Assembly: GCF_000422385.1 (NCBI RefSeq)
Contig: NZ_AULR01000002.1
Span: forward strand, 124,001 to 188,000
Length of the DNA stretch: 64,000 nucleotides
From: Microbacterium indicum DSM 19969
GTDB lineage: Bacteria; Actinomycetota; Actinomycetes; Actinomycetales; Microbacteriaceae
Reading direction: 5' to 3'
Below are positions 20,754 through 24,961 of this stretch, piece by piece. The position numbers were made by a program, and so were the translations under genes. The notes beneath the pieces are model-generated. The model saw nothing but the letters and a program-made list of their open reading frames with translations. It did not search any database and was not told the origin of the DNA. How positions within the stretch are numbered: position 1 is the stretch's first letter; every line of letters begins with the position of its first letter.

Positions 20754-22448
20754 GTGAGCACCGCGTTCGATCCGCCGCGCCCCTGGACCGCCTCCTACGC
20801 ACAGGGCGTCCCGGTCGACCTCGAACCGCAGACGGGATCCCTCATGGATCTCGTGGCGCGCTCGGCCGCCGACTTCCCCGACGCGACCGCGCTGCAGTTC
20901 TTCGGCCGCGAGACGAGCTACCGCAAGCTGGCCGACGCGATCGAGCGGGCTGCGAACGGCCTGCGCCGGCTCGGTGTGCGCGAGGGCGATCCGGTCGCGC
21001 TGATCCTCCCCAACAGCTCGCAGCACATCGTGGCCTTCTACGCCGTGCTGCGGCTCGGGGCGATCGTCGTCGAGCACAACCCGCTCTACACGCCGCGCGA
21101 GCTGCGCAAGCAGTTCGAGGACCACGGGGCGAAGCACGCGATCGTCTGGAGCAAGGTCGCGAAGACGGTGCAGGAGTTCCCCGCCGACCTCGCCGTGTCG
21201 ACGCTCGTCTCGGTCGACGTGACGACGGGCATGCCCGGGTACATGCGCGCCGCGCTGCGGCTCCCGATCCCCGCGCTCCGGCGCCAGCGCGCGCAGCTCA
21301 CCGAGCGCGTGCGCGGCGCCGTGAGCTGGGAGGAGGTCGTCGGATCCGCTCCGCTCGACCGCGACGTCCCCGGGCCCGCGACCGATGACATCGCGATCAT
21401 CCAGTACACGAGCGGCACGACGGGCGATCCCAAGGGGGCGGCGCTGACGCATCGCAACCTGCTCGCGAACGCGGCGCAGGCGCGCTCCTGGCTGCCCGAC
21501 ATCCAGCGCGGCCCCGGCAACGTCGTCTACGCGGTGCTCCCGATGTTCCACGCCTACGGGCTCACGCTGTGCCTGACGTTCGCGATGTCGCAGGGCGCCC
21601 GGCTCGTCCTCTTCCCGAAGTTCGACCCCGACATGGTCCTCGCGGTCACGAAGAAGCGCCCCGCGACGGTGCTCCCCGCCGTCCCGCCGATCGCCCAGCG
21701 CCTGCTGGCGCGCGCGCAGGAGAAGGGCGTCTCCCTCGCCGGCACGCAGGTCGGGGTCTCGGGCGCCATGGCGCTCGATGCCGAGGCCCTCGTCGGACCG
21801 TGGGAGGCCGAGACGGGCGGCTATCTCGTCGAGGGCTACGGCCTCAGCGAGTGCTCGCCCGTCTTGATCGTGAACCCCGTGGCGCCCAACCGCAAGGCGG
21901 GCTCGATCGGGCTGCCGCTGCCCGGAACCGAGTGCCGCGTCGTCGACCCCGAGACGGGTTCCGACGTTGCGCAGGGCGCGCCGGGCGAGCTGTGGGTGCG
22001 CGGTCCGCAGGTCTTCGGCGGCTACTACGGCAAGCCCGAGGAGACCGAGGCGGTGTTCTCGGGCGACTGGTTCCGCACGGGCGACGTCGTCGAGATGGAC
22101 GAGAACGGATTCTTCACGGTCGTCGACCGCATCAAGGAGCTCATCATCACGGGCGGCTTCAACGTCGCCCCGACCGAGGTCGAGATCGCGCTGCGCCAGC
22201 ACCCCGCGATCGAGGACGCCGCGGTCGTCGGCCTGCCGGGGGAGAAGGGCGAGGAGGTCGTCGCGGCGGTCGTGCTCGACGGCACGCCCGAATTCGATCC
22301 CGAGGAGGTGCGCGCCTTCGTCAAGCGCGTCCTGACGCCCTACAAGGCGCCGCGCCGCCTCGTCGTCGTCGACGAGCTGCCGAAGTCGATGATCGGCAAG
22401 GTCATGCGCCGGCAGGTCAAGCAGCTGCTGCTCGAGCGGGTCGGCTGA
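20754..22448 (+). CDS. fadD: Long-chain fatty acid--CoA ligase (AMP-dependent synthetase)
   Basis: 564 residues from GTG 20754. ANL-superfamily motifs: P-loop YTSGTTGDPKGAALTHRNL near residue 220, the VEGYGLSECSP adenine motif, WFRTGDVVEMDENGFFTVVDR hinge region and the C-terminal catalytic Lys in KSMIGKVMRRQ. It activates an acyl acid to acyl-AMP and then acyl-CoA. The overall sequence resembles FadD of fatty acid catabolism, but the exact acid cannot be read off. The last codon abuts the stop of the convergent MarR-type gene. Confidence 0.9.
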   Translation: MSTAFDPPRPWTASYAQGVPVDLEPQTGSLMDLVARSAADFPDATALQFFGRETSYRKLADAIERAANGLRRLGVREGDPVALILPNSSQHIVAFYAVLRLGAIVVEHNPLYTPRELRKQFEDHGAKHAIVWSKVAKTVQEFPADLAVSTLVSVDVTTGMPGYMRAALRLPIPALRRQRAQLTERVRGAVSWEEVVGSAPLDRDVPGPATDDIAIIQYTSGTTGDPKGAALTHRNLLANAAQARSWLPDIQRGPGNVVYAVLPMFHAYGLTLCLTFAMSQGARLVLFPKFDPDMVLAVTKKRPATVLPAVPPIAQRLLARAQEKGVSLAGTQVGVSGAMALDAEALVGPWEAETGGYLVEGYGLSECSPVLIVNPVAPNRKAGSIGLPLPGTECRVVDPETGSDVAQGAPGELWVRGPQVFGGYYGKPEETEAVFSGDWFRTGDVVEMDENGFFTVVDRIKELIITGGFNVAPTEVEIALRQHPAIEDAAVVGLPGEKGEEVVAAVVLDGTPEFDPEEVRAFVKRVLTPYKAPRRLVVVDELPKSMIGKVMRRQVKQLLLERVG

Positions 22449-22883
22449 TCAAGCCCCGCCGGCGAACGCCGCGAGGGAGTCGCGCACGCGGGCGATCTCG
22501 TCGGGGGCGAGCCCCGTCCTCTCCATGACCTGGCCGGGCACGTCGAGGGCGCGCTCGCGTAGCGCCGCGCCCTCGTCGGTGAGCGAGATGTCGAGGCGGC
22601 GCTCGTCGCCTGCACGGCGAGCGCGGGTCACGAGCCCCTGCGCCTCGAGCCGCTTGATGAGAGGCGACGCAGTCGCGGGCTCGAGCGCGAGCGCGTCGGC
22701 GAGCTCGCGGAGCGAGCGGGGCGAATCCTCCCAGAGCGCGAGCATGACGAGGTACTGCGGGTGCGTCAGACCGAGCGGTTCGAGGACCGGCCGGTAGATC
22801 GAGACGACGTTGCGCGCGGCCGTGACGATCGCGAAGCAGAGCTGGTTGTCGAGCCGCAGAAGGTCATCACGGGGATCTGTCAT
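22449..22883 (-). CDS. MarR-family regulator of the OhrR (thiol peroxide-sensing) type
   Basis: 144 residues from ATG 22883. The N-terminus LDNQLCFAI places Cys16 exactly where OhrR proteins carry the reactive Cys that is oxidised by organic hydroperoxides, and the following RPVLEPLGLTHPQYLVMLALWE aligns with Bacillus OhrR. The winged helix covers about 50-110 (SLRELADALALEPATASPLIKRLEAQGLV; RRAGDERRLDISLT wing). No ohr peroxidase gene lies nearby. It is divergent from a 70-residue Cys-containing protein; an inverted repeat lies between them. MarR regulators of this shape without redox sensing also exist, so the sensing role is inference. Confidence 0.88.
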   Translation of the reverse strand: MTDPRDDLLRLDNQLCFAIVTAARNVVSIYRPVLEPLGLTHPQYLVMLALWEDSPRSLRELADALALEPATASPLIKRLEAQGLVTRARRAGDERRLDISLTDEGAALRERALDVPGQVMERTGLAPDEIARVRDSLAAFAGGA

Positions 22884-22889
22884 GGATCC

Positions 22890-22895
22890 ATTCTG
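22890..22895 (-). promoter_or_regulatory. Putative leaderless -10 of the OhrR-type gene
   Basis: On the minus strand CAGAAT is followed by six bases and ATG 22883. The inverted repeat at 22906-22919 then lies in its -35 region. Confidence 0.4.
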
Positions 22896-22905
22896 TCACC
22901 ACGAA

Positions 22906-22919
22906 TAGTGAGTACACTA
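22906..22919. promoter_or_regulatory. Inverted repeat, candidate OhrR/MarR operator
   Basis: TAGTG-AGTA-CACTA is a perfect five-base inverted repeat in the 42-bp gap between the two divergent genes. The right half overlaps the -10 (TACACT, 22913-22918) of the rightward gene, and the repeat covers the -35 position of the leftward gene. It is A/T-rich against a G/C-rich background, like known MarR/OhrR operators. Confidence 0.5.
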
Positions 22920-22925
22920 ATTGTT

Positions 22926-23138
22926 ATGGCACAGAAGAAGCCCCTGAGCGAACGGATCCGCGAGGCCGGCGGCCTCTATCAGTACGTCAACTCCCGGCTG
23001 ATCCGCTACGCGGGCCCGCCGACCGTCGGGCCGTACGCGCCCGTCGACGGCCCGCCCTGCTCGCGGTGCGGCCACGTCAAGCGCGAGCACGTCGAGGTCG
23101 ACGGGGTCCTGCACTGCCCTGAGTCGCAGCCCGCCTAG
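22926..23138 (+). CDS. 70-residue Cys/His-containing protein, function unknown
   Basis: 70 residues from ATG 22926, placed seven bases after a TACACT -10, so probably leaderless. The sequence has a basic N-terminal half and a C-terminal CSRCGHVKREHVEV...HCPE, a possible zinc or metal site of three Cys and two or three His. It is divergent from the OhrR-type regulator and ten bases upstream of gatC. It may be a regulated target of that repressor or simply the first gene of the gat unit. I recognise no family. Confidence 0.75.
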   Translation: MAQKKPLSERIREAGGLYQYVNSRLIRYAGPPTVGPYAPVDGPPCSRCGHVKREHVEVDGVLHCPESQPA

Positions 23139-23147
23139 ACTGGGGAG
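23136..23147 (+). promoter_or_regulatory. Putative leaderless promoter of gatCAB (-10 TAGACT)
   Basis: TAGACT at 23136-23141, six bases (which include GGGGAG), then GTG 23148. It begins in the stop codon of the preceding small gene. Confidence 0.5.
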
Positions 23148-23447
23148 GTGTCTGAAATCACCCCCGATCTCGTGCGTCATCTCGGTGTGCTCGCTCGGAT
23201 CCAGCTCTCGGACGACGAGGTGACCAGCCTCACCGGCGAGCTCGACGCGATCGTGTCGAACATCGCCAAGGTGAGCGAGGTCGCGACGTCCGATGTCGCT
23301 GCGACGAGCCACCCGATCCCCCTGCAGAACGTCTTCCGGCCCGACGAGCCGGGGCAGATGCTCACGCTCGAGCAGGCTCTGCAGAACGCGCCCGACGCTG
23401 ACAGCGACCGGTTCCGCGTGACGGCGATCCTGGGGGAGGAGCAGTGA
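23148..23447 (+). CDS. gatC: Aspartyl/glutamyl-tRNA amidotransferase subunit C
   Basis: 99 residues from GTG 23148, the family length. The conserved [17 protein letters not shown] and the linker around [12 protein letters not shown] are present. GatC wraps around GatA and holds the GatAB complex. The stop overlaps the gatA ATG (TGATG). Confidence 0.96.
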
Positions 23448-24961
23448 TGGGCGACATCATCCGCCTGACAGCGGCCGAGCTGGCCGAGAAGCTGCGCTCC
23501 GGCGACGTCTCGAGTGCCGAGGCGACGCAGGCGCACCTCGACCGCATCGCGCAGGTCGACGGCGACGTCCACGCGTTCCTGCACGTGAGCGACCACGCCG
23601 TCGAGACCGCGCGCGACATCGACGCGCGTCGCCTCGCGGGCGAGGACCTCCCCGAGCTCGCGGGCGTCCCGCTCGCGGTCAAGGACGTCCTCGTGACGAC
23701 CGACATGCCGTCGACGTCGGCGTCGAAGATCCTCGAGGGCTACATGTCGCCGTACGACGCGACGGTCGTCGCGCGTGCTCGCGCCGCGGGCCTCGTGCCG
23801 CTCGGCAAGACCAACATGGACGAGTTCGCGATGGGCTCGTCGACCGAGCACTCGGCGTACGGCCCCACCCACAACCCCTGGGATCTCGACCGGATCCCCG
23901 GCGGATCGGGCGGCGGCTCGGCCGCGGCGGTCGCGGCCTTCGAGGCTCCCCTCGCGCTGGGCTCCGACACGGGCGGTTCGATCCGCCAGCCCGCGCACGT
24001 CACGGGAACCGTCGGCGTGAAGCCGACCTACGGCGGGGTGAGCCGCTACGGCGCGATCGCCCTGGCGTCGAGCCTCGACCAGGTCGGCCCCGTCACGCGC
24101 ACGGTCCTCGACGCGGGGCTCCTCCACGACGTCATCGGCGGGCACGACCCGCACGACGCGACGAGCCTCACGACCGAGTGGCCCTCGTTCGCGGCCGCGG
24201 CGCGCGAGGGGGCGTCGGGCGAGGTCCTGCGCGGCCTCCGCGTCGGAGTCGTGAAGGAGCTCCCCGACGACGGCTTCCAGCCCGGCGTCGCCCGCTCGTT
24301 CCGCGACGCTCTCGCGACCCTCGAGGCCGCGGGCGCGGAGATCGTCGAGATCAGCGCGCCGAACTTCGAGTACGCCGTCGCCGCGTACTACCTGATCCTC
24401 CCCGCCGAGGCGTCGAGCAACCTCGCCAAGTTCGACTCCGTGCGCTTCGGCCTGCGGTCGGAGGTCGCGGGCGGAACGGTCGAGGACGTCATGTCGGTCA
24501 CGCGCGACGCGGGCTTCGGCCCCGAGGTCAAGCGCCGCATCATCCTCGGCACCTATGCGCTCTCGGCGGGCTACTACGACGCCTACTACGGCTCGGCCCA
24601 GAAGGTGCGCACGCTGATCCAGCAGGACTTCGCCCGCGCCTTCGCCGGCGTCGACGTCATCGCGACGCCCTCGGCGCCGACGACGGCGTTCCGCCTCGGC
24701 GAGAAGATCGACGACCCGCTGTCGATGTACCTCAACGACCTGACGACGATCCCGGCGAACCTCGCCGGCGTCCCCGGCATCTCGATCCCGTCGGGCCTCG
24801 CGCACGACGACGGGCTCCCGGTGGGGATCCAGTTCCTCGCGCCCGCCCACGAGGACGCGCGCCTGTACCGCGTCGGCGCCGCGCTCGAGGCGCTGCTCGT
24901 CGACGCATGGGGAGGTCCGCTCCTCGACCGGGCCCCCGCACTCGAGGGAGGTGCGCGCTGA
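23447..24961 (+). CDS. gatA: Glutamyl-tRNA(Gln) amidotransferase subunit A
   Basis: 504 residues from ATG 23447, with GGGGGAGGA upstream; the GTG three bases earlier is less likely. Amidase-signature catalytic triad: K79 (LAVKDVLVT), S154 (GSGGGSAA) and S178 ([11 protein letters not shown]), the same numbering as in Staphylococcus GatA. The glycine-rich [13 protein letters not shown] loop is intact. It releases ammonia from glutamine and channels it to GatB. A one-base overlap couples it to gatB. Confidence 0.98.

Follow-up and report, generated by a model that had tools for sequence, protein, structure and literature searches.

A putative OhrR-derived stress switch with a histidine in the sensing pocket and a divergent 70-residue protein in Microbacterium indicum and related actinobacteria

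Introduction

Among thiol sensors OhrR is a textbook case, and the locus described here raises the question of what such a regulator would sense and control when the gene that faces it is not ohr. The locus lies in a stretch of 64,000 nucleotides of the Microbacterium indicum DSM 19969 genome, a 2.81-Mb draft (contig NZ_AULR01000002.1, positions 124,001 to 188,000 of the forward strand), hereafter called the window, whose own numbering is used throughout. An initial annotation had proposed for it an OhrR-type sensor without ohr, an inverted repeat over both promoters of a divergent gene pair, and a link to the expression of gatCAB downstream. The regulator loci used for comparison were the best 80 of 542 confirmed relatives, mostly from Microbacteriaceae, and the closest relatives of the genome by regulator in this set were mostly Microbacterium.

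Results

The regulator gene occupies 22449..22883 on the reverse strand and encodes an OhrR-like MarR protein of 144 aa. Its product matched the OhrRs of X. campestris (2pfb, E 3.4e-35) and B. subtilis (1z91, E 8e-31) over nearly the full length, and the top fold matches of its predicted model (pLDDT 94.5) were solved OhrR structures, the alignment with 2pex reaching a Z of 17.9 (rmsd 2.3, 134 residues aligned, 47% identity over 134) and that with 1z9c a Z of 17.3. The NCBIfam OhrR equivalog NF052638 gave 125.8 bits against a cut-off of 200, a score to be read with the name of that model, TransRegOhrRVib, and its possibly Vibrio-centred scope in mind. Cys16, which had been placed in an LDNQLCF context, was found exactly so and at exact coordinates (codon 22836-22838, reverse strand).

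According to the available part of the study on EstR (PMC5201249), the pocket of EstR and of X. campestris OhrR consists of the sensing Cys and two tyrosines (Tyr30 and Tyr41, EstR numbering). The regulator of the window has the fold and sequence of OhrR, the N-terminal sensing-type Cys (Cys16) and the first pocket tyrosine (Tyr30; Tyr36 in X. campestris), while the second tyrosine (Tyr41; Tyr47 in X. campestris) is absent and its place is taken by His41 (codon 22761-22763, reverse strand), which aligns opposite the TYPQY tyrosine in the two OhrR chains, from X. campestris and B. subtilis. Cys16, Tyr30 and His41 were invariant in an alignment of 51 regulators. Among the distinct proteins of this His-type, 187/187 carried Q-x-C-F/Y together with His41, and 174/187 contained a single Cys.

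That the sensor stands without ohr proved correct for the locus and incorrect for the genome, where a genome-wide search found a true Ohr gene on contig C11 (G000:C11:61801-62217; TIGR03561 175 bits, above the curated cut-off), by which an ohr-free genome is ruled out. This gene is one of three OsmC-superfamily genes, another of which is an OsmC above its own cut-off. An acyl-CoA synthetase gene also lies near ohr (locus L002, contig C11), and its product is 54% identical to that encoded beside the regulator. The regulator could then be an ordinary OhrR, sensing organic hydroperoxides and controlling the unlinked ohr in trans along with the small gene: its closest solved relatives are OhrRs, Cys16 and Tyr30 are retained, and in a genome that does harbor a true ohr it was the sole close OhrR relative found, the next match reaching 29 bits. 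We consider this reading unlikely, because the second pocket tyrosine is a His throughout the 187 distinct proteins of the group, because a different, Cys-free MarR-type gene precedes ohr, where no TTAGTNAGTACACTAA match at <=3 mismatches was reported, and because the operator of the divergent pair is unlike the actinobacterial OhrR box.

The residue at the second pocket position and the vicinity of ohr went together. In the flanks retrieved, of about 1-4 kb, ohr was nearby for 0/187 distinct His-type proteins vs. 8/8 distinct Tyr-type proteins, the latter being under-sampled because either a protein of the window or its operator served as the query for every locus. Likewise, in a set of 40 class-wide loci, hand-picked among the matches listed, mostly the best ones and thus non-random, none of the 32 His-type loci had ohr nearby and all 8 Tyr-type loci had an ohr match, although that in one locus was weak (35.8 bits). 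In a midpoint-rooted tree of 74 rows, which took 72 of the 195 distinct proteins and two PDB sequences on long branches, the 64 His proteins made up one side of a branch with support 96/91. Considering this clade together with the lack of ohr nearby, His41 and an operator of their own, the His-type regulators appear to have descended as one clade from OhrR, to have separated from ohr and to have changed in pocket and operator.

The gene facing the regulator (22926..23138, forward strand) encodes the 70-residue protein, other than Ohr and with a CxxC...H...C pattern, that the initial annotation had described. A helical N-terminal half is followed by GPPTVGPY and by a CxxC-x6-H-x8-C tail (C45, C48, H55, C64). 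At E<=1 neither Pfam nor NCBIfam contained a match for the window protein. Across 54 sequences of the small family, G30, C45, C48, H55, C64 and P65 were invariant, and in all 97 motif-matching small proteins the C-to-H spacing was six, the H-to-C spacing varying from 8 to 15. The structural model, of middling quality (pLDDT 77.7, pTM 0.35), predicts two helices in the N-terminal half, before GPPTVGPY, and a fold search with it returned no confident match (best E 3.5). Compared with solved structures, the family profile retrieved mostly rubredoxins (best E 0.044), and relatives gave weak profile matches to RGCVC (NF038206; 9/54, best E 0.00089) and to the YacG model (18/54, best E 0.00092). The E-values for the RGCVC family and for other zinc-knuckle families are what a shared CPxCG knuckle would be expected to give, and the window protein matches none of these families. 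From the invariant ligands we infer that the small protein binds zinc via C45/C48/H55/C64.

The profile found the small family in 55/394 class genomes. Among the 23 regulator-bearing loci from the small-protein search (own locus included), all 23 had the small gene in divergent orientation, and in 7/30 small-protein loci from 150 family genomes (own included) there was no regulator within 1.5 kb. A further 20 stretches, picked as second copies or unlinked places, had the small family without regulator nearby in 19 cases; in L282, which belongs to that set, the small protein was not recovered by the search. A longer second copy of the family was observed in L263-L268, with no regulator nearby, and a short-chain dehydrogenase-like gene lies close to it in L264, L265, L267 and L268.

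Seen from the regulator, among the best 80 of the 542 relatives the small gene was divergent, by pattern, in 76 loci, and the Cys/His motif was present in 73. When the 32 His-type loci from across the class were searched by pattern, a Cys/His small protein turned up in nine, belonging to four other families (L199, L201, L204, L205, L208, L209, L210, L222 and L230), a membrane-type protein in two, a spurious frame in one and nothing in 20, and in 11/32 the scanned stretch contained no TT...AA 12-mer. The protein facing the regulator in L102, L103 and L109 keeps the FGP segment without the Cys/His tail, and in L178-L180 a 59-aa membrane-type protein (membrane stretch identified by eye) faces it. 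A protein with HGPAKW/F, mostly of 57-61 aa and with one membrane-like stretch by eye, was observed in one family, facing or near the regulator in L178-L181, L184, L200 and L231. Six small divergent proteins from other loci, one HGPAKW/F protein included, had no Pfam or NCBIfam match. Outside Microbacteriaceae both the target and the operator varied, and the small family of the window therefore appears to be the usual target in Microbacteriaceae, recurrent beyond them and not universal.

This variety of targets bears on a possible metal switch, in which a soft metal such as Zn or Cu would be bound by Cys16 and His41 and buffered or delivered by the small protein. Such a role might be read from the Cys-His pair that replaces Cys-Tyr and from a target with invariant CCHC-type ligands, and metal-responsive MarR proteins are known (PMC11211675, in its available part). 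Nonetheless, the alignment of 51 regulators contained no second invariant Cys or His, and the target gives way in other families to proteins lacking the CCHC tail, so that a metal switch seems quite improbable.

Only 42 bp separate the two divergent start codons. The inverted repeat TAGTG-AGTA-CACTA pointed out by the initial annotation is present exactly, at 22906..22919, and taken alone is weak: 5-bp arms with a 4-base spacer arose in 3.7% of 5000 shuffles of the 42-bp intergenic region, and 5-bp arms with any spacer of 0-8 in 25% of them. A repeat was taken as real because the core columns are nearly invariant across 89 distinct related sites. The alignment comprised 92 loci, corresponding to these 89 distinct sites, and took in only loci with a TAnnnT box 6-8 nt ahead of the start; starts were chosen to favor that box, and conservation of the -10 columns was therefore favored in it. 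Twelve core columns hold 1.0-2.0 bits. The Microbacteriaceae consensus, TTAGT-RC-ACTAA, is centered two bases off the repeat first proposed, and the mean arm complementarity was 0.73 about the conserved axis (between TTAGTA and CACTAA) vs. 0.37 about the earlier one, which is thereby ruled out as the conserved axis. In the window, the conserved operator TTAGTRCACTAA is represented by TGAGTACACTAA at 22909..22920, with one arm mismatch. TTAGTTAGTACACTAATG or a near variant lies upstream of the small gene in most fetched loci; in some relatives the operator is the perfect palindrome TTAGTGCACTAA, and in three genomes a second copy was found 15 bp away.

Exact TTAGTRCACTAA occurred in 37/150 family genomes, never more than once per genome (reversed-pattern control 7/150), and in 37/394 class genomes (reversed-pattern control 38/394). 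Since the class-wide count hardly differs from its reversed control, the count alone proves nothing and it is the position beside the regulator that is telling: a regulator was encoded within about 1.5 kb at 61/71 exact places (48/56 plus 13/15; operator places only, all fetched). The places without regulator were L122, L124, L129, L167, L170, L172, L174, L175, L185 and L187; among them, L122 carries a small gene from the family. When the own genome was scanned with TTAGTNAGTACACTAA at <=3 mismatches, the window site matched with 1 mismatch and two other sites with 3, the reversed control giving 3 matches, and the window site is the only convincing operator in this genome. Where the gene order is altered, being convergent in L144 and L145 and in line in L140, L141 and L149, the operator is still in front of the small gene, an arrangement that speaks for a target role of the small gene over and above autoregulation. 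Because the operator and the divergent pair are conserved together, comparison lends good support to the proposal of a switch dedicated to the CxxC...H...C protein.

Within the operator lies a putative -10 of the small gene, TACACT (22913..22918, forward strand), 7 nt before the ATG; across the loci its distance to the start is usually 6-7 nt. The probable -10 of the regulator, CAGAAT (22890..22895, reverse strand), is placed 6 nt before its ATG and is weaker than the TAnnnT boxes, often of the TAGGAT type, that relatives have there. Both promoters are treated as putative because a strict sigma-70 scan of the locus found no promoter; neither a terminator scan of the locus nor an Rfam search of 22300-23500 gave anything useful. 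Among the best 80 of the 542 relatives, TAnnnT was present 6-8 nt before the small-gene start in 70/76 loci, with starts chosen to favor the box, and 5-9 nt before the regulator start in 53/76 loci with a called start. A -10 only 7 nt before the ATG suggests that the small-gene transcript is leaderless. The operator covers TACACT and the expected -35 region of the regulator, both belonging to predicted promoters. Overall, the features noted by the initial annotation were confirmed, and its interpretation was supported in part.

The suggested link to gatCAB did not stand. gatC follows the small gene by a few bases in the own genome, L052, L053 and L081, with TAGACT-6 nt-GTG; in the window, TAGACT (23136..23141, forward strand), a probable -10, overlaps the stop of the small gene and lies 6 nt before the gatC GTG (23148). 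TAnnnT was found exactly 6 nt before the gatC GTG in 26/26 readable Microbacterium loci (of 30 fetched, 4 being unreadable by pattern), and gatC looks leaderless in all 26. In a crude scan for the motif across 400 bp, only the own one of the 26 readable loci had the operator upstream of gatC. As gatC carries its own conserved putative promoter box and follows the small gene in only 3/80 loci (best 80 of 542), co-control of gatCAB finds no support, and some read-through from the small gene into gatC may occur.

On the other side of the pair, an acyl-CoA synthetase gene ends at 22448 and adjoins the regulator. It could be taken to indicate a MarR protein that binds a ligand, has Cys16 in a structural role and senses, for example, acyl-CoA from the neighboring synthetase. 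We give this very little credence, as the synthetase neighbor was found in only 3/80 loci (L052, L053 and L081; best 80 of 542), which discards it as a general feature, and Cys16 was in every His-type protein examined. In the flanks (up to 4 kb) of the same 80 loci, uvrA was found in 24, uvrB in 15 and both in 9. Many Microbacterium pairs were observed amid nucleotide excision repair genes (L039-L118); UvrA, UvrB, UvrC, CoaE and dehydrogenase-like genes were named by eye. In L182, a single case, a rhodanese faces a His-type regulator across the operator, which is a hint at sulfur chemistry. Given that it occurs in varied neighborhoods, the pair behaves as a unit.

Discussion

Comparison of the loci shows the clade of His-type regulators, their pairing with the small gene, an operator placed across the putative promoter, the lack of a neighboring ohr, and the invariance of the Cys, Tyr and His of the pocket and of the putative zinc ligands. 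We regard it as probable that the regulator is a 1-Cys OhrR-derived autorepressor dedicated to a zinc-finger-like small protein, the two forming a self-contained switch. A regulator dimer would bind TTAGTRCACTAA, where it would sit both on the small gene's -10 and on the upstream promoter region of the regulator gene, and would repress the two genes. An oxidant, an electrophile or a reactive sulfur species would modify Cys16 in the Cys16/Tyr30/His41 pocket and bring about release, and the derepressed, leaderless mRNA would then yield the 70-aa protein, whose C45/C48/H55/C64 site would bind zinc and whose N-terminal helices and GPxxxG segment might, more speculatively, dock on a partner.

A thiol oxidant is a plausible signal, with Cys16 present in all 187 distinct His-type proteins, and the change from Tyr41 to His argues against the plain label of a peroxide-sensing OhrR. 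How a lone Cys may be switched is illustrated by two regulators, as far as the available parts of the sources describe them: the OhrR of B. subtilis has a lone Cys15 that bacillithiolation inactivates (PMC4360819), and in C. glutamicum the MarR-type OhsR is switched by mycothiolation, as an activator (PMC6306002). In the own genome MshA and MshC were both below cut-offs, so that a mycothiol route for the 1-Cys regulator is unsupported and any low-molecular-weight thiol involved may not be standard mycothiol. The signal could also be sulfane sulfur, with Cys16 becoming persulfidated as reported for Cys12 of MgrA. MarR proteins, P. aeruginosa OhrR and MgrA among them, sense sulfane sulfur (PMC11211675; PMC9495516; available parts), and the rhodanese facing the regulator in L182 would suit such chemistry. 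This is not a likely account, however, for the rhodanese was in one locus only, and no sulfur-metabolism gene was noted beside the pair in the window.

The autorepressor model can be set against better known systems. The 1-Cys OhrR of B. subtilis (1z91, 1z9c) resembles the regulator in fold, in the N-terminal sensing Cys and in the equivalent of Tyr30, but has Tyr40 where the regulator has His41, and differs from it further in that the regulator is not linked to ohr and has a different operator. A closer analogy of design is offered by EstR, an OhrR paralog of A. tumefaciens, which in the available part of its description (PMC5201249) shares with our locus Cys16, a divergent target other than ohr, operators over both promoters, and an own operator distinct from the OhrR box. 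An EstR-type arrangement, with a divergent non-ohr target and an operator over both putative promoters, is present here as judged by sequence. Unlike the regulator, EstR keeps both Tyr30 and Tyr41, is a 2-Cys protein whose second Cys lies near the C-terminus, and controls an esterase (PMC5201249); here Tyr41 is replaced by His41, a second Cys is lacking in 174/187 distinct His-type proteins, and the target is a 70-aa protein.

Two actinobacterial systems, known to us from parts of the respective papers, complete the comparison. OhrR of Streptomyces (PMC6034001) belongs to the same protein family and comes from the same class, and is a repressor acting on an inverted repeat over the promoter region; its boxes are ACAATTNAATTGT and GCAACTNAATTGC and its targets ohr, whereas the operator described here is TTAGTRCACTAA, with no ohr nearby, and the 89-site alignment differs from the ACAATTNAATTGT type of box given in that part of the source. 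CrtR (PMC7432914) is a MarR regulator of like design, being a local autorepressor that has a divergent target and is conserved across actinobacteria, but it recognizes a 15-bp motif with a central TTAA, responds to geranylgeranyl pyrophosphate, and has carotenoid and mmpL targets, unlike the regulator of the window. We found no description of the divergent pair itself in our searches of open-licence PMC papers, subscription papers being outside their scope.

Beyond the single locus, we tentatively put forward, as a possibility that we hold with some doubt, that the THPQY clade might be a separate thiol-sensor class, with a Cys-Tyr-His pocket and a signal other than organic hydroperoxides (reactive sulfur, an electrophile or a metal), and that its main targets might be new, very small zinc proteins, spread over several Actinomycetes families and acting themselves rather than via a peroxidase. 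His41 is the feature of interest for the signal sensed by the regulator. Tyr or His at this one pocket position cleanly splits the sampled actinobacterial relatives into those beside ohr and those not, and such a clean split offers a rule for re-annotating many 'OhrR/MarR' genes, as well as a single-residue test of the role of the pocket tyrosine. The locus also provides a simple, predicted 12-bp operator, and the conditions that induce its very small conserved protein would give a clue to what that protein does. The pair of M. indicum would represent a conserved local switch derived from OhrR, with a diagnostic change in the pocket and an undescribed small protein, and the pairing, which recurs in many actinobacteria, looks like an undescribed stress switch.
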